DNA from: Thermoplasmata archaeon
GTDB taxonomy: Archaea > Thermoplasmatota > Thermoplasmata > Lutacidiplasmatales > UBA184
Reading direction: 5' to 3'
DNA: 64,000 nt
NCBI GenBank assembly: GCA_022750155.1
Contig: JAKIWG010000010.1
Location: 1 to 64,000 of the forward strand
Part shown: positions 2,097-40,925 of the stretch, piece by piece
How positions within the stretch are numbered: the first letter of the stretch is position 1
How the letters are laid out: the number at the start of each line of letters is the position of its first letter
Notes under the pieces: model-generated
What the model saw: the letters and a program-made list of their open reading frames with translations, nothing else
Told to the model about the DNA's origin: nothing
The model's database searches: none
Position numbers and translations under genes: made by a program

Positions 2097-3203
2097 ATGG
2101 TCGGATTCGGAAACGCGGGGCTGGTCTCAGTAGCGGTGCCGTGGATGGCCGTGGTGACCATTGTGCTTCTCGTCCCCGGCGCTATCGGAACTCCTGGCAC
2201 CCATAGCGCCAAGGTCGCTCCGGCCGCCTTTACGTTCCATAAATGGGCCGACCTTTCGAGCCGGGCGGGCGTCGCACCGACCGCCCGGCAAGCATACGGC
2301 ATGACGTTCGATCGTACCCAGGGTGTCACGGTCCTGTTCGGCGGCAACGCGGCCAACGGGTCTGCGTTGGGCGACACCTGGGAGTTCGTGGGCGGGCACT
2401 GGAAGAACATGAACCTCACCGGGAGTGCCGCTCCGGCGGCCCGATGGGCCGAGGGGCTCGTGTACGACGGGTTCCTGGGCGGGGTCCTGATGTTCGGAGG
2501 CCAGAGCTCGTACATCTCCTACTGCGGAATATCGTGTGCCTTCAACGACACGTGGCTGTTCAATTCGACCGGCTGGCACAACCTCAACCTCGCCGTGGCG
2601 CCGTCCCCCCAGCCGGCATCGGGACTAGTCACGGACACCCACGACGGCTACGACCTGCTCCTTTCGCACCCGGTCGGGATGCCTTCCTACACCGAAGAGT
2701 GGCGGTTCAGCGGAGGGAAATGGATCAACGCGACGGCCACGATCAAGGGGGCCATCCCCAATCTGGGGTTCTATTCGGCCGACGACGTCACAGACGGCTA
2801 CGTCGTGATGTACGGAGGCGATTCCGGTTGCAGCGGCGCGGGGATCACGTGGATGTACCGCACCGGGACCTTCCATAATCTCACCTCTAAACAGACGGCC
2901 AGCCCACCCGCCAAGGCGGGGAGCCATGCGATGACCTACGACCCACGAGTGCACGGGGTCGTCATGACTGGGGGATACGACGCCAGCTGCAAGGTCTCCA
3001 ACCAGACCTGGCTGTTCCACCTCGGCCATTGGCAGAATGTTTCCGCCATCACCGGGACGCTGATCCCGGGCCGCTGGGACGCGCGGATGGTTTGGGACTC
3101 CAACCTTGGGCTGCACGGTGGCGACCTGACATTCAGCGGGAATGAGGCCAAGGTGGGGGGTTCGAATTCCTTCGGCTCCGACACCTGGAAGCTGACGCCG
3201 TAA
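2097..3203 (+). CDS. Secreted kelch-repeat beta-propeller protein
   Basis: The 368-residue product starts at an ATG followed by a clear signal or anchor segment (residues 8-28, VSVAVPWMAVVTIVLLVPGA). The rest consists of kelch-like blades, each with a Y/F-D-x-x-x-G-V-x-x-x-F/Y-G-G core and a D-T-W element. Examples are FDRTQGVTVLFGG with DTWEF, YDGFLGGVLMFGG with DTWLF, and YDPRVHGVVMTGG with QTWLF. Blades of this type are common on surfaces of Thermoplasmata-like archaea and usually mediate binding. The longer frame extends upstream to 1746, but that part lacks protein-like composition. A TTTAAG box lies about 40 bases upstream. Confidence 0.85.
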   Translation: MVGFGNAGLVSVAVPWMAVVTIVLLVPGAIGTPGTHSAKVAPAAFTFHKWADLSSRAGVAPTARQAYGMTFDRTQGVTVLFGGNAANGSALGDTWEFVGGHWKNMNLTGSAAPAARWAEGLVYDGFLGGVLMFGGQSSYISYCGISCAFNDTWLFNSTGWHNLNLAVAPSPQPASGLVTDTHDGYDLLLSHPVGMPSYTEEWRFSGGKWINATATIKGAIPNLGFYSADDVTDGYVVMYGGDSGCSGAGITWMYRTGTFHNLTSKQTASPPAKAGSHAMTYDPRVHGVVMTGGYDASCKVSNQTWLFHLGHWQNVSAITGTLIPGRWDARMVWDSNLGLHGGDLTFSGNEAKVGGSNSFGSDTWKLTP

Positions 3204-3361
3204 GCGGCGGCGCGGGCGCCTCTCGGGCACGGACCGCCGTTCGAATCGTCTCGGCCCGCCTCGGCTAGACCTCGGGAGGAGGGGCAGTGGTGCGACCCCC
3301 TCCCGTGGGCCGAGTAGAGAGGTGGACTCCGCCCCTATGCGGGCCTTCCCGTGAGCTGGTG

Positions 3362-3679
3362 TCACCGCACGACGTTGCGATCCGCCCGGTCCATCCGTTC
3401 CACCAGGTCCCGGGCGATGAAATCATCGAGCTCGCCAGGCTCCGCGCCAGTCAGATCTTCGACGATGTCGTCGCGGGTCGCGTCGAATCCGAATCTCAGG
3501 CCGATCCAGGCGATCACCCCGGCATGGTATGCAACGCCAAATCCGACAAACAGGAGGGTGTTCCCCCCGAACCAAATCAGCACGTAAAAATGATGATCCC
3601 GATTGGAATCATACCGTACGCGACGAACCGTGCGGCGGTCCAGCCCAAGGGCATGGGTCCGTCGCGGGACGTCACCCAC
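3362..3679 (-). CDS. Small membrane protein with acidic C-terminal tail
   Basis: The 105-residue product has a basic N-terminus (1-30), a hydrophobic region (about 30-60, FYVLIWFGGNTLLFVGFGVA continuing to an Ile-Trp-Ile-Gly stretch) that could form two short transmembrane helices, and a soluble charged tail rich in Asp/Glu. No family was recognised. It faces away from the preceding kelch gene and is not obviously co-transcribed with anything. The biased hydrophobic/charged pattern argues for a real gene; function is unknown. Confidence 0.5.
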   Translation of the reverse strand: MGDVPRRTHALGLDRRTVRRVRYDSNRDHHFYVLIWFGGNTLLFVGFGVAYHAGVIAWIGLRFGFDATRDDIVEDLTGAEPGELDDFIARDLVERMDRADRNVVR

Positions 3680-4002
3680 CGATATCTACACTCCGAAGGG
3701 TAGCTCGGCGTGGCCCCTGCCTGCGGCTCCCGGCAATCAGCATCTTCGCCCGCCTCGAGGGAACTCCCCCGGCGGAGCCTTTTCCTTCGCGGCGATCGAC
3801 CCTGCGCCACCGACGGATACGAACCATCCGACGATAATCCGTGACTCCGGGGGTACCGAGTGCAGAGCCACTCCTCGTACACCCGATGGAAGGAAGGCCG
3901 GGGGGGCGGGAGGCGCCGGTTGTGCGGGTTTCGGGTCACCCGCACCCGTCGCCCTCCCCCCAGGGGTGCTGGTCTAATCAAGCGGGGCCCCCTTCGCAGG
4001 CT
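3680..4002. other. Intergenic region
   Basis: 323 bases without a convincing gene. The frame of the next protein extends back to 3841, but that stretch is Pro/Gly/Arg-rich and contains no domain. No promoter element stands out. Confidence 0.3.
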
Positions 4003-4974
4003 GTGTCCGACACCCAGACGATCGAATGGCTCCTCGAGGAAGGGCAACCCTCGATCCGCTATCTGACCCTGACCCAACTTCTCGGGAGAAATGAGAACGA
4101 TTCGGACGTTCGGGAGGCGAAGGCCAGCATCCCAAAGGTCGGCTGGGCCTCGGAGGTGCTTTCTCGCCGGGATCCGGGCGGCTGGTGGGTTCGGGACCGC
4201 GGGTGGCTCGAGCCTCGTTTCCGCGGGACCCACTGGAACATGCTCGCACTCGCGGACCTCGGGGCGACTCGCACCACCCCCGAGGTCGCCCGATCCAGCG
4301 AGTACTGGATGGCCAAGTCTCCCCTCGTCGGCGGCGGGGTCGGAGGGTTCGGGAAGGGGAAGGGCCACCATTGCTACACGGCCAACATGGCCCGAGGACT
4401 CATTCGCCTCGGCTTCGAGGACGACCCGAGGGTCAGAAAGACCCTCGAGTGGATCGTCAGGACAGCGCACCCCAAAGGTGGCTGGGCGTGCCGCTTCTCT
4501 ACGGGCGGCCAGTCTCCCAGCCGGACCCTCGATGCGTGGGAGGGTTTGGGGGCGTTCGCCGCGTATCCTCCCGCCCGGTGGACCCCCGCGATGCGGGAGT
4601 GCGTCGAGCGAAGCGCGGAATATTTCCTGGACCACGAGCTCCACGTTCAGGGCCCGAGATACGAACCGTGGTACCGGTTCCACTGGCCGGTCCACTACTA
4701 CTATGACCTCCTCGTCGGACTCGACTGTCTCACCGCCCTCGGATACGGGCAGGACCGCAGGCTCGGGTACGCTCTCGGACTCCTGCGCAAGAAGCAGCGG
4801 CCCGATGGGAGGTGGAACCTGGACACACCCCAACCCGACCCCGATCCCGAGACGGCGGAGTGGTTCGCCGCTCACCCCGAGCGTCGACCCGAGCCCCTGA
4901 CGTTCGAGGTGGCGGGGCGTCCGAGCAAGATGATCACGCTGCGGGCGCTCACGGTCCTTTCCAGGGTGGGCTAA
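4003..4974 (+). CDS. Alpha/alpha-toroid (prenyltransferase / squalene-oxidase repeat) protein
   Basis: The 323-residue product starts at a GTG; upstream sequence in frame is low-complexity. Repeats resemble the QW/prenyltransferase toroid: GGWWVRD, GGVGGF, GGWACRF and a final QRPDGRWNL, with aromatic helices such as HYYYDLLVGLDCLTALGY. The single toroid is half the size of a squalene-hopene cyclase, and no DxDD protonation motif was found, so it should not be called a cyclase. Similar stand-alone proteins occur widely in archaea with unknown substrates. No signal peptide is visible, so it is probably cytosolic. Confidence 0.75.
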   Translation: MSDTQTIEWLLEEGQPSIRYLTLTQLLGRNENDSDVREAKASIPKVGWASEVLSRRDPGGWWVRDRGWLEPRFRGTHWNMLALADLGATRTTPEVARSSEYWMAKSPLVGGGVGGFGKGKGHHCYTANMARGLIRLGFEDDPRVRKTLEWIVRTAHPKGGWACRFSTGGQSPSRTLDAWEGLGAFAAYPPARWTPAMRECVERSAEYFLDHELHVQGPRYEPWYRFHWPVHYYYDLLVGLDCLTALGYGQDRRLGYALGLLRKKQRPDGRWNLDTPQPDPDPETAEWFAAHPERRPEPLTFEVAGRPSKMITLRALTVLSRVG

Positions 4975-5202
4975 CGGCCTCGATCGAATTTCCTCGCGCC
5001 GGAGGCGTTCCTATCGGGAACCCCCCCGAGGAGGCGAATCCGCCGGCACTCCCCCCGGGGGTTCCTCGTGCGGCTAGGGTCGATCCCTCGGGGTCCGGCA
5101 GGTCGTCCTCCGGCTCGTGACCCGAGAACCCGGGGCGGCCTGTCACCTCGGCCGAATGCGAGGAGGTCTCACCGGTTCACGAACTCGACCCGAAGAACGA
5201 CG

Positions 5203-27121: not shown

Positions 27122-29560
27122 TTGGCACTCGGGGGCCCGGAGTTGGACCGAGGCTCTCGGCCGGTCCGTTATCGGTTCGAATCCCGGCCCACGCGAGTCG
27201 AGCGGGAGGAGGCGGAGCGGTTCGAGACCCGGCTCTCTCGATCCCTGCGGGTCGCGCTCGCGTGGGCTCTCCCATTATCGCTACGGTGGGAGGGCGGCGT
27301 TGGGGGTGGGATCGTGCTCTCGGTCCGGGGCCTGTCGGCGGCCCGCTGGGTCGACCGCGTGCTCCAACCCACGTACGAGCCCCACGGTTGGAGGCTCCAG
27401 GGCGGCCGCGTCGAACCACGGCGGTGCGAGATGCCGCCGCGATGGGCGGAGCGAACACGGGCTCCTCCCCTCGCCCTCCCCGGACCCGAGTCCGGTCCAG
27501 GAGGCCGCTGGTCGGAGACGGTCTTTGCGGGGATGGGGGCGATGCCGTCGGGGCTCGCCGTGGAGTGGGACGTTCAGCCATTGGGGCTCGCCGAGCACCC
27601 GATCGAGCTCCTTCCCCCGACGATCCTGCAGCCGGTCCCTCTGGGATACCGTCCGGTTCCAGCTTCGGCGTCCGAACGTCAGGTGATGGACGACTCGATC
27701 TCCCACCGTTGGCAGGCACAGTGGGGCGTGGTGGGACGACTGACCGCCGGGGCCGGCGCGGACCTCCAGGGCATGGAAGAGCTCGACCGGCTGGTTCAGT
27801 CGGCTTCGCATGTTCCGGGGAGGGCCGGAATCCGGTTCCGGCGCCGGCGCGCCTGGCTGCCGGGGCGTCCGGCACAGTTCCGGATCTCCGAGGCGGAGCT
27901 TCGGGCGTTCTTCCCTTCCCCGTGGTCGTTCACGGCGTTCCGACCGCAGGAGGAGGGAGCGGCCCCGGTGCATCGTCTGCGGTTGCGTCCACCGGCCACG
28001 GACCCTGCCATCGCGATCGATGCCCAGCAGGGCCGGCACCTGCTCGTGCTCGGCGAGACCGGGATGGGGAAGAGCACGCTGTTAATCGAGCTCGCGCGCC
28101 GAGCGATGCGATGGGGCTCGGTGGTCCTCTTTGACCCGATCGGGGACACGACGCGTCGCTTGGTCGGGTCGATGACGCCGGCGGAGCGCGCTCGCGCCGT
28201 CCTGATCTCGCCCATCCACTCGCCCGTGGGGATCAACGCGGTCCCCGTTCACGGCCGGGAGGGCCGGGGCAATGCCGCGTCCGCTGAGCGGGCCCGGGAG
28301 GACCTGGTGGGAGCGCTCCGCAGGGTGCGGGAATCCCGGTACGAGGGCTCCCCGTTCTGGGGCCCGCGCCTCGAGGAGACCGCGACGATCGCGATCGATG
28401 CCGCGTCACGGTTCCCCGGAGGAACCCTGCTCGATGCCCAGCACCTGCTCGAGGCCATCGGGCACAGGCCCGGACCCGTCCCCCCCGAGGCCCGGGAGTC
28501 TGTGGAGGCGCTTCGCCGCCGCGTCATGGAGCGGCCCGAAGAGGTCGACGGGACGCGACGCCTTCTCGGCGAGATCACGAGACACTCATTGCTACGCCGA
28601 ATGCTCTGCGAGCCGAACCCCCGTTGGAGCGTCGCGGACGCGCTGGCCCCGAACCGCACCGTGCTGCTCGCCGGTGAGGCCCCCGAGGCGGGCGAAGGCG
28701 TCGCGCGATCGCTGCTCTCCGTGCACCTCGCGATCCTGTGGGCCGAGCTGATCGCCCGCCCCCGCCCCTCGAAGGTGTTCCTGGTGCTGGACGAGGTTCA
28801 ATGGTACGCCCACGAGAGCCTCGGTGAGATGCTTCGCTTGGGGCGTCGGTTCAACCTTCACGTGTGGGCTGCGACCCAGTCGCTCTCGCGGCTCCCGCTC
28901 CCGCTGAGAGATGCCCTGCTGACCAACTCCGCCGATGTCGTCCTGTTCCGAGGGTCGCCGGAGGAGGCGCGCGAGTTCGCTCGATGGTCCTCTCTGATCA
29001 AAGCCGAAGAAATCGGGGCGCTACCGAGGGGGCGCGCGCTGGTGTTCGTCGACAAGGGTCGAGAACTCTCCTGGCTGGATGGGGACCGAGGGGTGGAGTC
29101 GTCCGCCCCGGACCCCGAAAGCTGGGAGGAGGTCGTCGAGCGATCGGAGGCATGGGTCGTCCCCCAGGCCGTTCCCGTCCCGTCGGACCATCCGATCGGT
29201 GGGGACGGTCCAGCCCCGCCGGGTGCGGCTGATCCCCTCCGGGACCTGATCCTCATCCTCTGGGCAGGGTTGCTTGCGGTCGAGCCCGCTCCCACGCTAA
29301 GGATATCGCTCACCGGTTTGCGTCGCGTCGCCGACCCGGCCGGGCAGCGCGTGCGCGAGCTGGGCCGACGATTGGCCGACGCAGGGGTCCGGATGGATAC
29401 GGGCCGGGACGACTCCGGGAGCTTTTGGATCGTCGCGCGCGAGGGATTCCGCACGCTCCTGTCCTCCGGGGTCGATCCGGCCGAGCTCGTCCGGGCGGCC
29501 GAGCGATGGCGGTCCATCGGCGAGCGGGACTCGGCCCGGCCGGCACAAAAAGCACATTAG
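27122..29560 (+). CDS. VirD4/TraG-HerA-like DNA-pump ATPase
   Basis: The 812-residue product has an N-terminal region of about 290 residues without transmembrane helices, then a FtsK/HerA-type motor. Walker A is GETGMGKST (about residue 311), followed by VVLFDPIGD. Walker B is VFLVLDEVQWY (about 555), followed by a sensor-like LHVWAATQSLSRLP, as in conjugative coupling proteins and VirB4/HerA relatives. The C-terminal 130 residues look like a small winged-helix domain. TTG at 27122 is the furthest upstream start. It heads an operon with three RecA-fold genes. No relaxase or pilus gene is near, so a conjugative role is not supported. Confidence 0.8.
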   Translation: MALGGPELDRGSRPVRYRFESRPTRVEREEAERFETRLSRSLRVALAWALPLSLRWEGGVGGGIVLSVRGLSAARWVDRVLQPTYEPHGWRLQGGRVEPRRCEMPPRWAERTRAPPLALPGPESGPGGRWSETVFAGMGAMPSGLAVEWDVQPLGLAEHPIELLPPTILQPVPLGYRPVPASASERQVMDDSISHRWQAQWGVVGRLTAGAGADLQGMEELDRLVQSASHVPGRAGIRFRRRRAWLPGRPAQFRISEAELRAFFPSPWSFTAFRPQEEGAAPVHRLRLRPPATDPAIAIDAQQGRHLLVLGETGMGKSTLLIELARRAMRWGSVVLFDPIGDTTRRLVGSMTPAERARAVLISPIHSPVGINAVPVHGREGRGNAASAERAREDLVGALRRVRESRYEGSPFWGPRLEETATIAIDAASRFPGGTLLDAQHLLEAIGHRPGPVPPEARESVEALRRRVMERPEEVDGTRRLLGEITRHSLLRRMLCEPNPRWSVADALAPNRTVLLAGEAPEAGEGVARSLLSVHLAILWAELIARPRPSKVFLVLDEVQWYAHESLGEMLRLGRRFNLHVWAATQSLSRLPLPLRDALLTNSADVVLFRGSPEEAREFARWSSLIKAEEIGALPRGRALVFVDKGRELSWLDGDRGVESSAPDPESWEEVVERSEAWVVPQAVPVPSDHPIGGDGPAPPGAADPLRDLILILWAGLLAVEPAPTLRISLTGLRRVADPAGQRVRELGRRLADAGVRMDTGRDDSGSFWIVAREGFRTLLSSGVDPAELVRAAERWRSIGERDSARPAQKAH

Positions 29561-29585: not shown

Positions 29586-30365
29586 ATGGCTGATGGGGCA
29601 CTTCCGGGAGGGCCGGCCTCCGAACCTCCCGGGGAGCGCTGCCCCTCGGGGATCGAGGCGCTCGATAATATCTTGGGTGGCGGGTTCCCGCGCGGCCATC
29701 TGGTGCTGGTCGCCGGATCCGTCGGTACCGGAAAGACGACCCTCACCCTCGAGTTCCTGGTCCGCGGGGCGGAGCGGGGGGAGCGTAGCTTGTTCCTGTC
29801 GGTCACCGAGGCGTCCAGCAAGCTTCGGCAAAACCTCTCGACGTTCGAGTTCTTTCGGCCCGAGCTCGTCTCGAGCGGCCGGCTCGTCTTCGTCGACATC
29901 CCCGTCGTCTACGAGAAGCTCGGGCTCGACCACGAGGAGCTGACCCTCGAGGAGATCGACCTGCTCATCCGGGCGATCCAGGGCCTCGTCACCGAGCTCA
30001 AGATCTCCCGCCTGGTCATCGATTCGCTCACGAGCGTCTGCTACCGGATCCGACGCGAGGAACGGATCCGAGATTTCATGCTGAAGCTCTCCCAGGTGCT
30101 CGCCGACCTGAACTGCACCACGCTGCTCGTCTCGGAGATCGGGCAGGCGAGCGGGCGCTTCTCCCTCCATGGGGTGGAGGAGGCGATCGTCGACGGGGTG
30201 ATCCTCCTCGGGAACACGCGCCGCCAGGGGGACATCATCCGGGTGCTCCAGATCATCAAGATGCGCGGCACCTCGCACTCCCGCGCCCAGTACGTGGTCG
30301 AGCTGACGCCCATCGGACTGCTGATGGCCCCCCACCTCAAGGGCGGGCGCCAGGAGGGGATGTAG
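29586..30365 (+). CDS. KaiC/RadA-like RecA-superfamily ATPase, intact active site
   Basis: The 259-residue single-domain KaiC-like protein has Walker A GSVGTGKTT (residues 44-52), Walker B LVIDSLTSV (about 140) and an acidic residue after strand 2 (LFLSVTEASS). Family members form hexamers that act in signalling or DNA transactions. It begins 25 bases after the DNA-pump gene and ends 1 base before the next gene, so it is firmly in the operon. Confidence 0.88.
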   Translation: MADGALPGGPASEPPGERCPSGIEALDNILGGGFPRGHLVLVAGSVGTGKTTLTLEFLVRGAERGERSLFLSVTEASSKLRQNLSTFEFFRPELVSSGRLVFVDIPVVYEKLGLDHEELTLEEIDLLIRAIQGLVTELKISRLVIDSLTSVCYRIRREERIRDFMLKLSQVLADLNCTTLLVSEIGQASGRFSLHGVEEAIVDGVILLGNTRRQGDIIRVLQIIKMRGTSHSRAQYVVELTPIGLLMAPHLKGGRQEGM

Positions 30366-30951: not shown

Positions 30952-31737
30952 ATGGGCAAGCTCGCCGGCGATGTCGTCCTCGGGATCCCCGAGCTCGACC
31001 GGGACCTCACCGCGTCGCTGCCCCCCGGATGGCTCGGCCTGCTCGTCGGCTCGGCCGGTTCGGCGACCTCGCTGTTCGCCAAGCAGTTCGCCCACGCCGG
31101 ACTGGGGAGCAGCCCCGTGCTCTACTACTCGGTCTACGAATCGACCTCGGACGTGGAGCGGGCCTTCCACGACTTCGGCTGGGACCCGAGCGGTCTCAAG
31201 ATCTTCAATCTCGCCGAGGAGTACTACCAGAAGGTACTGCTGCGGGACCTCGAGATCTCCCGCCTGAGGGAGCGCGGCCTCAGCTATGGAGAGGTCGCCG
31301 GGGTCCCGGTCTCGGTGAGCAATCCGCGCACCTTCAACCTGACGAGCCGCCTGTTGGCGGACCTGGCCGCCCTCGACTCCCCGTTCCGCCTGGTCCTCGA
31401 CTCGCTCGACTTCCTGCTCGAGATCCTCGAACCGGAGGCCGTTCTCACGGTGGCGCGCCAGATCCGTCATCGGGCGCAGACGCTGGGGGGGATGGCCCTG
31501 CTCTCCATCCAGGGGGACATCCACGAGCGTCGGACGACCGGACTCCTGGAGGACATGGCCGACCTCGTCATCGAGCTCCAGGCGCTCCCGCAGGCCGGGG
31601 GCTACGAGCACCGGATCGCCGTCTCGAAGATCCGCAACCACCCGGAACGCTCCCGGATCGCCTCGGCCCAGGTGACCGGCTCCGGCTTCGGGCTCCTCGA
31701 TGCCCCCGTGGGGGCCACCAGCCCACCCTCGCGGTAG
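30952..31737 (+). CDS. KaiC-like protein with destroyed Walker A
   Basis: The 261-residue paralogue starts directly after the preceding stop. The KaiC fold is recognisable (LGIPELDRDL; LYYSVYESTSDVERAF; Walker B FRLVLDSLDFLLE), but the P-loop reads GSAGSATS (residues 33-40), without the Lys needed for phosphate binding. Loss in two of three sister proteins suggests structural or regulatory subunits rather than decay, since both frames are intact. Confidence 0.8.
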   Translation: MGKLAGDVVLGIPELDRDLTASLPPGWLGLLVGSAGSATSLFAKQFAHAGLGSSPVLYYSVYESTSDVERAFHDFGWDPSGLKIFNLAEEYYQKVLLRDLEISRLRERGLSYGEVAGVPVSVSNPRTFNLTSRLLADLAALDSPFRLVLDSLDFLLEILEPEAVLTVARQIRHRAQTLGGMALLSIQGDIHERRTTGLLEDMADLVIELQALPQAGGYEHRIAVSKIRNHPERSRIASAQVTGSGFGLLDAPVGATSPPSR

Positions 31738-38731: not shown

Positions 38732-39034
38732 GACTTTCGGCGGCGATTGGTTCTTAAACCCTCGCGTGGAGTCGGCGCCGGAATTCTCTTCGGGTCCGTC
38801 CAGGGTTCACTCGCTTGGCCTCGACGCCTCTTTCGGGGGGGGGGTGAGGCCTCTCCACCGGTGACGCCGGTCGAGCGGACCCACGGGAAGCGGGGGAACG
38901 AGATCGGTCCTCCGGGGCACCGCGGGAGTGGAATGGACCCCCCTCGGCGGGTCGAGTTCCGCCCCACGGCCCGCCCGGTCGACCGCGTCCATTCGAGACT
39001 CGAGTTGAAGAACCGAAGGGGATAGCACACGGTC
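38732..39034. other. Divergent intergenic region
   Basis: 303 bases between divergent surface-protein genes. TCTTAAAC at 38751-38758 is the only AT-rich element and could serve the minus-strand pair. No gene or repeat is supported. Confidence 0.35.
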
Positions 39035-39760
39035 GTGCACCGAAGGGCGCGGATCGCTCTCAGTGGGGTGGGGGTGCCTCGACCATTGAGCCGTTCGCAA
39101 GGGGCGCCGCGGCTGGGGGTACATGTGGCCCTCCTGGTCATCCTGATCCTGCCCGCCCTCCCTCTCGCGGGAGGGGCGGTCTCCCTCCAGCTCGTCGCGT
39201 CGTCTCCGTTGAGCGGGCACCCCACGATCGGCCCGATGACGGCGACCTCAACGGCGGCAGGGGTCGGGACCTGCGCCAGCACGGAGACCGCGAGCGTGCC
39301 GTTCCTATCGGGGAACGCCCGGGGTTCGGCGGTGGTGGCGGAGCCACGGACCTGCCCTTCGAACACCCGGCTGATCTTCCTCGCAGCCCTGCGCTTCTCC
39401 AACGGCCTTCCCGTCCCCCTCGGCCATGTCCTCACCGTTCGGCTCGACGCCGCGGTCCTCAACGGAACCACGGGGATGCTGCGGAACGTCCAGTTCTACG
39501 TCCAGCGGATCGCATTCGGAAATCCGATCGTCACCCTCGCCCACGTGACGATCCTCCGGGGCACCCTGCGGGTCGCCTCGACCTCGACCGCCGTCCTGGC
39601 CGCCGGGTCCACCTACGGGATCGGGATCCGGATGCAGTTGACGCACCTGCCCCTCGCCTCCACGGCCCAGGTCGGGCTGGTCGTGTATCTCGTCGACGCC
39701 GATGGGGGCCTGACCCGGGTCGTGGACGAGCAGTGGGCCGCGTTCACGTTCACCTACTGA
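39035..39760 (+). CDS. Secreted beta-rich protein of unknown function
   Basis: The 241-residue product begins at GTG, with an export segment (about 28-48, VHVALLVILILPALPLAGGA) and a beta-rich body containing repeats of Leu/Val strands (RLDAAVLNGTTGMLRNVQFY; YGIGIRMQLTHLPLASTAQV) and two Cys. No anchor follows. It belongs to the surface gene cluster 35673-39760. Confidence 0.65.
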   Translation: MHRRARIALSGVGVPRPLSRSQGAPRLGVHVALLVILILPALPLAGGAVSLQLVASSPLSGHPTIGPMTATSTAAGVGTCASTETASVPFLSGNARGSAVVAEPRTCPSNTRLIFLAALRFSNGLPVPLGHVLTVRLDAAVLNGTTGMLRNVQFYVQRIAFGNPIVTLAHVTILRGTLRVASTSTAVLAAGSTYGIGIRMQLTHLPLASTAQVGLVVYLVDADGGLTRVVDEQWAAFTFTY

Positions 39761-39799
39761 GCGAGAACGGCCCCCGCCCCCCGGGGCGCACGGATAGGG

Positions 39800-40198
39800 C
39801 TACGCCGGGGCTTCCCAGGGGAGGTGCGCCGAAGGGGGGCGGGTGACCTTGGCCGTGGCGTGGCTCTCGGTGGCGACGGCGCGCTCCACCGCCTGGACCA
39901 GCTCTCGGACGAACCGGTCGAGACGAGCCCGCTCGGGCTCGGGAATGGTCGCGGGGAGGACCCACCGGGCGAACGCCCCTCCGCTGTTCGGGTAGAGCCG
40001 GAGCTCGATCTCCTTCGCCCCATCGGGCACCGCCGGGTTCATCCGGGTGAGGTGCGCCTTCACCGTGCTTTCGGCCGGGTCGTTCGTGTCGATCCGCTCG
40101 ATGGCATATCCGGCACCGGTGAGGAATTCGGCGAGGTAGCCGGCAAAACGCTCCCGCCCCATTCCCCGGACTCTCAGCCACTCACCATTGTCAACCAT
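39800..40198 (-). CDS. Conserved-looking small protein of unknown function
   Basis: The 132-residue soluble protein has mixed alpha/beta composition (RERFAGYLAEFLTGAGYAIE; KEIELRLYPNSGGAFARWVL; RLDRFVRELVQAVERAV). Its ATG lies within the last 8 bases of the SpoU methyltransferase gene, so it is likely the tail of the LX - pfdA - ftsY - SpoU operon. No family was recognised. Confidence 0.6.
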   Translation of the reverse strand: MVDNGEWLRVRGMGRERFAGYLAEFLTGAGYAIERIDTNDPAESTVKAHLTRMNPAVPDGAKEIELRLYPNSGGAFARWVLPATIPEPERARLDRFVRELVQAVERAVATESHATAKVTRPPSAHLPWEAPA

Positions 40199-40925
40199 GG
40201 GTTCTCTTCAATCGCCGGTCGATGCTCTTGAGGAAGCCCAGGAGCATCCGGTATTCCGACTCGGTAGGAGTCGACCGGCCCATTACCCGCCGGAACAGGA
40301 GCATAAGACCTCGCCGCTTGTGGGCCGGGTAGCCCACCCGGCGGGCGAGCTCGTCAATCCGCTCCAAAAACAGCTCCTTTTCGCCCCCGTGCAGGGTCAG
40401 TTCCTCCGGCTCCGGGGTGCTCTCCGGATGGTCGATCCCCCGCCCTCGGTGCACGGCATAGAGCACGACGCTCACCGCATGGGAGAGGTTGAGCGTCGGG
40501 AACTCCCGGCGGGCGGGGATGTGCACGAGCAGGTCGCACTCCCCGAGCTCCTCCCGGCCCAGTCCGTCGTCCTCCGGGCCGAAGACGATCGCCACCCGGC
40601 CTACCATGGGCCGCAGCATCTCCCCGAGGCGTTCGGGCGCCACCCCTCGCCGCAGGTAGGTCCGGGCGCGGCCGGTCGACAGGTCGGTGGTGCCGACGAT
40701 CAGGTCGGCCTCAGAGACCGCGTCGGCGAAGTTCTTGACGATGCGCGCATTCTTCAGGAACGGTTGGCCTGCCATCGCCCGCCGATACGCCTCGATCCCG
40801 AGGCGGGCGCGGGGGGCGACCAGGACGAGGCCACGGACCCCGAAGTTCTTGGCGAGGCGTGCGATCGCCCCGACGTTCCCGTCCTCCTTGGGCCGGACGA
40901 GGATCACGTCGACCTGGGCGCTCAC
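40191..40925 (-). CDS. SpoU-family RNA 2'-O-methyltransferase (TrmJ-like)
   Basis: The 244-residue SPOUT enzyme probably methylates tRNA ribose. Motifs: VILVRPKEDGNVGAIARLAK (motif 1), VAIVFGPEDDGLGREEL (motif 2) and FPTLNLSHAVSVVLYAV (motif 3), with a C-terminal helical extension as in TrmJ. The GTG start at 40925 makes a GTGA overlap with the ftsY stop, which fixes it. Confidence 0.9.
   Translation of the reverse strand: MSAQVDVILVRPKEDGNVGAIARLAKNFGVRGLVLVAPRARLGIEAYRRAMAGQPFLKNARIVKNFADAVSEADLIVGTTDLSTGRARTYLRRGVAPERLGEMLRPMVGRVAIVFGPEDDGLGREELGECDLLVHIPARREFPTLNLSHAVSVVLYAVHRGRGIDHPESTPEPEELTLHGGEKELFLERIDELARRVGYPAHKRRGLMLLFRRVMGRSTPTESEYRMLLGFLKSIDRRLKRTHG

Follow-up and report, generated by a model that had tools for sequence, protein, structure and literature searches.

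A candidate KaiC-family pseudo-ATPase encoded in a conserved three-gene cassette of the Thermoplasmatota

What does a KaiC-like protein do in an archaeal cell once its P-loop has lost the Walker A lysine? To our knowledge, little is known of how archaeal KaiC-like ATPases work, and the question is raised by a window of 64,000 nucleotides (contig JAKIWG010000010.1, GenBank assembly GCA_022750155.1) from a Thermoplasmata archaeon of the Lutacidiplasmatales, in which three genes, here named K1, K2, and K3, follow each other on one strand (Table 1). An earlier note on this DNA had claimed that K3 carries GSAGSATS where GxxGxGKT/S is expected, that its Walker B motif and the architecture of a KaiC paralogue are kept, and that it may act as a structural subunit that senses or caps an active neighbour. 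The available text of PMC5847659 proposes that KaiC-like ATPases serve as signalling hubs in archaea, and it ties a divergent, possibly inactivated KaiC domain named 'iKaiC' to archaeal signal transduction (Galperin et al. 2018, citing Makarova et al. 2017 mBio).

Table 1. Features of the K1-K2-K3 locus, in coordinates of the window
Feature	Coordinates	Strand	Description
K1, active-looking KaiC-like ATPase	29586..30365	+	259 aa; Walker A GSVGTGKT, Walker B VIDS, KaiC finger KMRG; PF06745 187.5 bits
K2, short KaiC/RecA-like protein without P-loop	30367..30951	+	194 aa; PF06745 E = 3.5e-5, 23.7 bits, below the cut-off of 26.6
K3, putative KaiC-family pseudo-ATPase	30952..31737	+	261 aa; PF06745 profile, profile-profile match to K1, residue counts
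Degenerate Walker A of K3, GSAGSATS, residues 33-40	31048..31071	+	Sequence and alignment
K44 of K3 (AKQF)	31081..31083	+	Five residues past the lost Lys; K in 66/69 rows, R in 2, M in 1
Walker B aspartate D150 of K3	31399..31401	+	D in 63/70 rows, N in 6, H in 1
KIRNHP of K3, residues 226-231	31627..31644	+	Aligns with the KMRG finger of K1 and KaiC

Identity of K3

The reading frame of K3 is open throughout and its ATG stands immediately past the stop of K2. The product scores 48.5 bits against the Pfam family PF06745 (E = 9.3e-13; cut-off 26.6), and a profile-profile comparison with K1 (Prob 97.5, E = 5e-12, 216 columns) pairs the P-loops, the Walker B motifs, and the C-terminal K-x-R regions of the two proteins. 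Specifically, GSAGSATS is aligned with GSVGTGKT of K1 and does not fit the Walker A pattern of active ATPases, GxxxxGK[T/S]; the Walker B aspartate is present in LVLDS, and K226 and R228 are the predicted counterparts of the K-x-R finger residues. The loss of the P-loop lysine and the retention of Walker B and of the paralogue architecture are thus confirmed, as the earlier note had it. KaiC structures are matched piecewise by the K3 profile over most of the length of K3. Two structure models, built from four sequences each (the window and L034-L036), are poor (mean pLDDT 53.2 and 52.4); with the low-confidence single-chain model of K3 (mean pLDDT 53.2), Foldseek returned KaiC on top (E 1.7e-9, prob 1.00), at TM scores, by query length, of just 0.37-0.43 among the top 50 matches.

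K3 falls outside the circadian clock KaiC family (TIGR02655, 14.7 bits versus a cut-off of 546.25), having one domain and not two, and its weak similarity to DUF7504 (PF24336, 25.2 bits), like that of K2 (18.1 bits), stays below the cut-off of 27 bits; DUF7504 itself was detected in 1 of 14 control genomes, that of Haloferax volcanii. A role in the archaellum of the ArlH/FlaH type was considered and rejected, the NF052589 score being 25.9 bits against a cut-off of 215, and the accessible text of PMC9287336 reporting Lutacidiplasmatales to be without archaellum genes. In Haloferax volcanii, CirA affects cell shape and motility and ArlH is part of the archaellum, as stated in the available part of PMC13286277. 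We file K3 as a putative inactivated KaiC-family paralogue rather than an active KaiC ATPase.

Loss of the Walker A lysine is fixed in K3

Seventy K3 rows, that of the window among them, were gathered from the phylum, and 69 of them are readable at the P-loop site, where the remaining row is truncated. The rows are uneven, many coming from one genus, 40 regions were selected by hand among the K2 and K3 matches, the alignments A1, A2, and A3 comprise 31/41, 27/40, and 27/39 related rows, each plus the window, and one contig was entered as L036 in the residue counts and as L053 in the gene-order count. The Walker A lysine is missing in 66/69 readable rows, its position being taken by T (20), A (17), M (9), I (9), S (3), F (2), G (2), or others (4), with K in the remaining 3. 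At the following Thr/Ser position, E (36), P (17), S (7, among them the window), D (5), G (2), and H (2) are found, Thr never. The three lysine-bearing rows (L118, L119, L133) read GKE, and GKT or GKS occurs in 0/69 readable rows. The alignment of orthologues that the earlier note had proposed for recognizing a pseudo-ATPase supports that role, and the orthologues with GKT that were to betray a sequence error were sought in the 69 rows and not found. K226 is kept in 69/70 rows.

The nearest relative, L034, reads GSASSATS, and GHSGSGAP, GPTDAETS, and GSAGSATS coexist within the genus of the window. Beyond that genus the remodelled loop shows a pattern, G-x-P-G-[S/A]-G-[T/M/I]-E being a frequent form with L-F-A-K-Q-F after it. 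Past the loop, K44, Q45 (69/69), and D204 (70/70) are near constant and the Glu column, E63, is kept in 67/69 rows; K1 has mostly Leu or Met at the position matching K44. The second finger residue is more variable: the R228 position holds R in 45 of 70 rows, K in 9, A in 9, G in 4, L in 2, and H in 1.

Among 61 genomes (that of the window and 60 relatives), 50 have a K3 match at E <= 0.001; in 40 of these 50, window included, it reaches 1.2e-31 or better (the match of G017 is cut by its contig), and the weak matches of the remaining 10 we take to be other KaiC paralogues. A quickly built tree with 69 K3 and 12 K1 rows separates K3 from K1 with a support of 100; its branches are long, K1 is the sole other KaiC paralogue in it, and the placement of L133 is unsure. 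Since the rows with GKE occupy two separate positions in the K3 part, with three state changes by parsimony, the lysine was lost at an early stage, perhaps repeatedly, or has been regained. The dN/dS values of K3 are 0.115 (window/L034), 0.059 (L035/L037), and 0.008 (L061/L062), those of K1 and K2 in the same pairs lying at 0.009-0.070; mean column identity, computed on slightly different row sets, is lowest in K3 (47%, versus 52% in K2 and 66% in K1). K3 is under purifying selection and the loss of its lysine is fixed.

The K1-K2-K3 cassette and its surroundings

The earlier note had placed the active neighbour of K3 at K1. K1 is indeed active-looking and belongs to the same cassette, with K50 and T51 identical in 63/63 rows and E75, D146, K225, and R227 in 64/64 rows from K3-bearing loci; the direct neighbour of K3 is K2. 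The C-terminus of K2 corresponds roughly to the start of the K-x-R strand of K3, K2 is without the finger, and the motifs IDSxNSLAIHN and ESPxxLE are conserved in K2 within the class of the window. K2 is a weak relative, its profile scoring Prob 20.8 against K3 and Prob 1.5 against K1; the profile retrieved no PDB chain at E <= 0.1. The low-confidence K2 model matched chain X of BCDX2 (7.0e-5), which we take from its letter to be XRCC2, as well as KaiC (8.9e-5) and RAD51 (1.5e-4). A RecA-like fold of K2 is likely, if uncertain, and K2 is probably a second dead KaiC-like paralogue, the case being weaker than that for K3.

In the window, 1 nt separates K1 from K2 and 0 nt K2 from K3, and the order K1-K2-K3 on one strand, with fewer than 200 bases between profile matches, recurs in 60 of the 70 K3 loci sampled in the phylum. 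Of the ten exceptions, L033 and L041 are truncated where their contigs end, L066 has a gap of exactly 200, L113 and L116 carry an extra gene between K2 and K3, L126 gives no K1 match, L134 has K1 and K3 without K2, and in L131-L133 K3 stands by itself. Moreover, K1 and K2 matches without K3 were found in 11 further sampled loci (L104-L110, L114, L115, L135, where the K1 row is partial, and the doubtful L111, whose K1 match, on the opposite strand, is probably another KaiC paralogue), and K2 alone in L112. Neither K3 nor the K1-K2 pair strictly needs the other, K3 being alone in three loci and K1-K2 in ten or eleven.

Across 340 genomes of the phylum, K2 was detected in 162 and K3 in 149 at E <= 1e-20, both in 138, K2 only in 24, K3 only in 11, and neither in 167, which corresponds to an odds ratio of 87 that ignores phylogeny. 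At E <= 1e-10, the counts are 170 for K2, 175 for K3, 151 for both, and 146 for neither, and many of the K3 matches so added may be other paralogues. These counts cover K2 and K3; the K1 profile was searched in 20 whole genomes. Seven genomes have K3 (E <= 1e-20) without K2 (E <= 1e-10), and among them K1 is missing at 1e-20 in three, weak (2.9e-25) in one, clear but on another contig in two, and near K3 in one.

The extra gene between K2 and K3 (L113:3785-4897 and L116:3751-4872, from two families of the phylum) has marginal MetOD1 scores of 26.0 and 24.5 bits against a cut-off of 23.8, and an ATC hydrolase match below cut-off. MetOD1 is described as a domain of archaeal two-component regulators (PMC5847659, in its available text), and the MetOD1-like gene therefore points to signalling. 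Where K3 has no nearby K1 or K2 match (L131-L133), it adjoins a PRC-barrel gene in L133, a locus with a GKE loop whose genome carries a K1-like gene on another contig, and in L132 it lies close to a DUF7504/KaiC-like gene whose P-loop is intact. The 20 neighbouring genes scanned at seven loci (L060, L064, L116, L120, L131-L133) include transketolase, ThiC, NadA, and methyltransferases; none is shared between the loci, and they point to no pathway. Some archaeal KaiC-like families are associated with type IV pili (PMC4858521, in the part available); no link to such pili was found among the neighbours scanned.

The three genes are missing together in some close relatives. Four genomes of the genus of the window, 93-97% complete (G001, G002, G019, G379), have no K2 or K3 by profile search, and their best K1-like matches are distant (1.3e-27 to 2.3e-34, versus 1.5e-131 in the window), whereas PAC2, the gene that follows K3, is present in all four, as a fragment only in G379. 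A HerA-like gene adjoins PAC2 in G001, with about 0.5 kb between them, and in G002 the two are separated by a stretch with a transposase-like ORF; in G019, PAC2 adjoins the GTPase gene that in the window lies beyond HerA, and likewise in G013, which has no K3 match and a distant K1-like one (1.2e-27). At these sites in G001, G002, G019, and G013, the profiles of K1, K2, and K3 gave no match at E <= 1 among ORFs of at least 25 residues, and tblastn gave one weak K2 match (E 0.077), inside the HerA gene of G002. In G002, the place that the cassette occupies in relatives (L147, about 2700-5200) holds, as judged by eye, the transposase-like ORF (3200-4015, minus strand) and a pair of small genes resembling a toxin-antitoxin locus.

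On the other side of the cassette, an 812-aa HerA/TraD/CedB-like ATPase is encoded at 27122-29560 of the window, 25 nt upstream of K1; no match to it was found in the cassette-free G019, G379, and G013. PAC2 and the HerA-like gene accompany the cassette in loci of the window genus and in three named relatives and in 0/16 loci outside the genus (L058-L073), and both were set aside because of this absence. A link to the PbaA/PF0014 tholos through PAC2 was rejected: PF0014 has a small globular fold with nothing KaiC-like according to the accessible part of PMC6992696, and PAC2 does not accompany the cassette in those 16 loci.

A mixed KaiC ring or stack, its rivals, and known systems

We favour, at a probability of about one half, a reading in which K1, K2, and K3 form one KaiC-family signalling ATPase and K3, itself non-hydrolysing, completes the ATP site of K1 in a mixed ring or stack; the physical complex, the finger acting in trans, the activity of K1, and the signalling role are all inferred. 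K1 alone would bind and hydrolyse ATP. K3, which has lost its own phosphate-binding loop, still has its Walker B strand and the Lys(-x-Arg) finger and has probably retained the fold; it would sit beside K1 and direct K226 and R228 onto the gamma-phosphate of the ATP of K1, like the n+1 subunit of KaiC, so that the assembly of the partners would set hydrolysis. K2, lacking both P-loop and finger, may be a cap or docking subunit. In KaiC, according to the available text of PMC2777353, ATP is held by K294 of subunit n and by K457 and R459 of subunit n+1; K3 has lost the counterpart of K294 and keeps, in K226, that of K457. The earlier proposal is supported in part: K3 is a fixed pseudo-ATPase under purifying selection, and gene order, co-occurrence, and joint loss tie it to the active neighbour, which it may or may not sense or cap. 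With K2, the picture widens from a lone capping subunit to one of two dead paralogues in a trio.

A finger supplied by K3 would explain both the retention of K226 and the behaviour of K1 with and without K3. In K1 rows from loci without K3, the finger Arg is present in 4/10 and the Glu column in 5/10 (3/9 and 4/9 when L111 is omitted), a hint, in rows of which five come from one family (f20), that these residues drift where K3 is absent. The finger there reads KMSG, KMAG, KMKG, or KMKA in L104-L108 and L110, the Arg being lost and in some of them the Glu column too; KMRG is kept in L109, L114, and L115, and in L135 the Walker A Lys of K1 has become Arg. Against the mixed ring or stack, R228 is Arg in only 45/70 rows, and K226 may be required for the fold, as K1 rows share it. 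A bolder and more tentative proposal is that of a widespread archaeal KaiC-type switch with one catalytic and two dead paralogues, in which ATP would be hydrolysed only at the contact of K1 with the K3 finger and ring composition, not phosphorylation, would set the output of a hetero-oligomeric KaiC.

The patterned loop and the near-constant residues also suit other explanations. K3 could have become an adaptor or sensor built on a dead KaiC fold, with another ligand or a protein bound in the emptied pocket and with shared signalling, rather than the ATP site, as its tie to K1. The G-x-P-G-[S/A]-G-[TMI]-E loop common in the class, the E or D that follows the lost Lys in 41/69 rows, the constancy of K44, Q45, and D204, and the three loci in which K3 stands without K1 or K2, one of them beside the PRC-barrel gene, all agree with such an adaptor; it would need neither the ordered adjacency to K1-K2 nor the kept finger lysine, and we regard it as rather improbable. 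If instead K44 or another basic residue had replaced the P-loop lysine, as in displaced-lysine kinases, K3 would be a rewired active nucleotide binder, and the conservation of K44, E63, and the Walker B aspartate and the three GKE rows would follow. However, in 62/69 rows the position of the Mg-binding Thr/Ser carries Glu, Asp, Pro, Gly, or His, which should repel Mg-ATP or fail to hold it; K44 sits five residues further along the helix, and the loop varies within the genus of the window. We regard this explanation as unlikely. That the motif is a sequencing error or belongs to a decaying pseudogene, for which its departure from the consensus is the one argument, is already refuted by the lysine-free rows, the loop of L034, the open frame, and the dN/dS values given above.

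Compared with the iKaiC case, the K1-K2-K3 trio shares a divergent, possibly inactivated KaiC-family domain and differs in being a stand-alone three-gene set, one live and two dead, whereas iKaiC is a HalOD1 fusion in haloarchaea (PMC5847659, as far as its available text goes). K3 is homologous to one domain of cyanobacterial KaiC, including Walker B and the K-x-R finger; cyanobacterial KaiC, however, is a homohexamer in which CI and CII both bind ATP, and K3 consists of one domain whose P-loop is dead. In the human RAD51B-RAD51C-RAD51D-XRCC2 hetero-oligomer (BCDX2), RecA-fold paralogues differ in their ATPase roles and act with lysine fingers on the ATP of the adjacent subunit (PMC7614784, available part); unlike K2 and K3, which have no usable P-loop, RAD51D and XRCC2 bind ATP through Walker A according to the same part of that source, and no DNA role is known for the trio.

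If the proposal is true, a hetero-oligomeric KaiC would stand against the homohexameric one of cyanobacteria. The trio, with K2 and K3 together in 138/340 genomes, offers a compact system for probing the role of dead subunits and a finger in trans. The abstract of Makarova 2017 reportedly names homologues with inactivated ATPase domains. Inactivated KaiC-like domains have been reported in archaea before, and what sets the present case apart is the fixed combination of one live with two dead paralogues; the full-text literature searched, whose scope did not include Makarova 2017, yielded no description of a K1-K2-K3 set, and no claim of absence is made. A second adjacent KaiC-like pair is encoded in the same genome on the minus strand (G000:C9, about 38857-40483; L153:588-2214), where an active-looking protein of 241 aa (GLPGTGKT) is preceded by an overlapping partner of 304 aa that reads GEPGAGHQ and likewise lacks both Lys and Thr.
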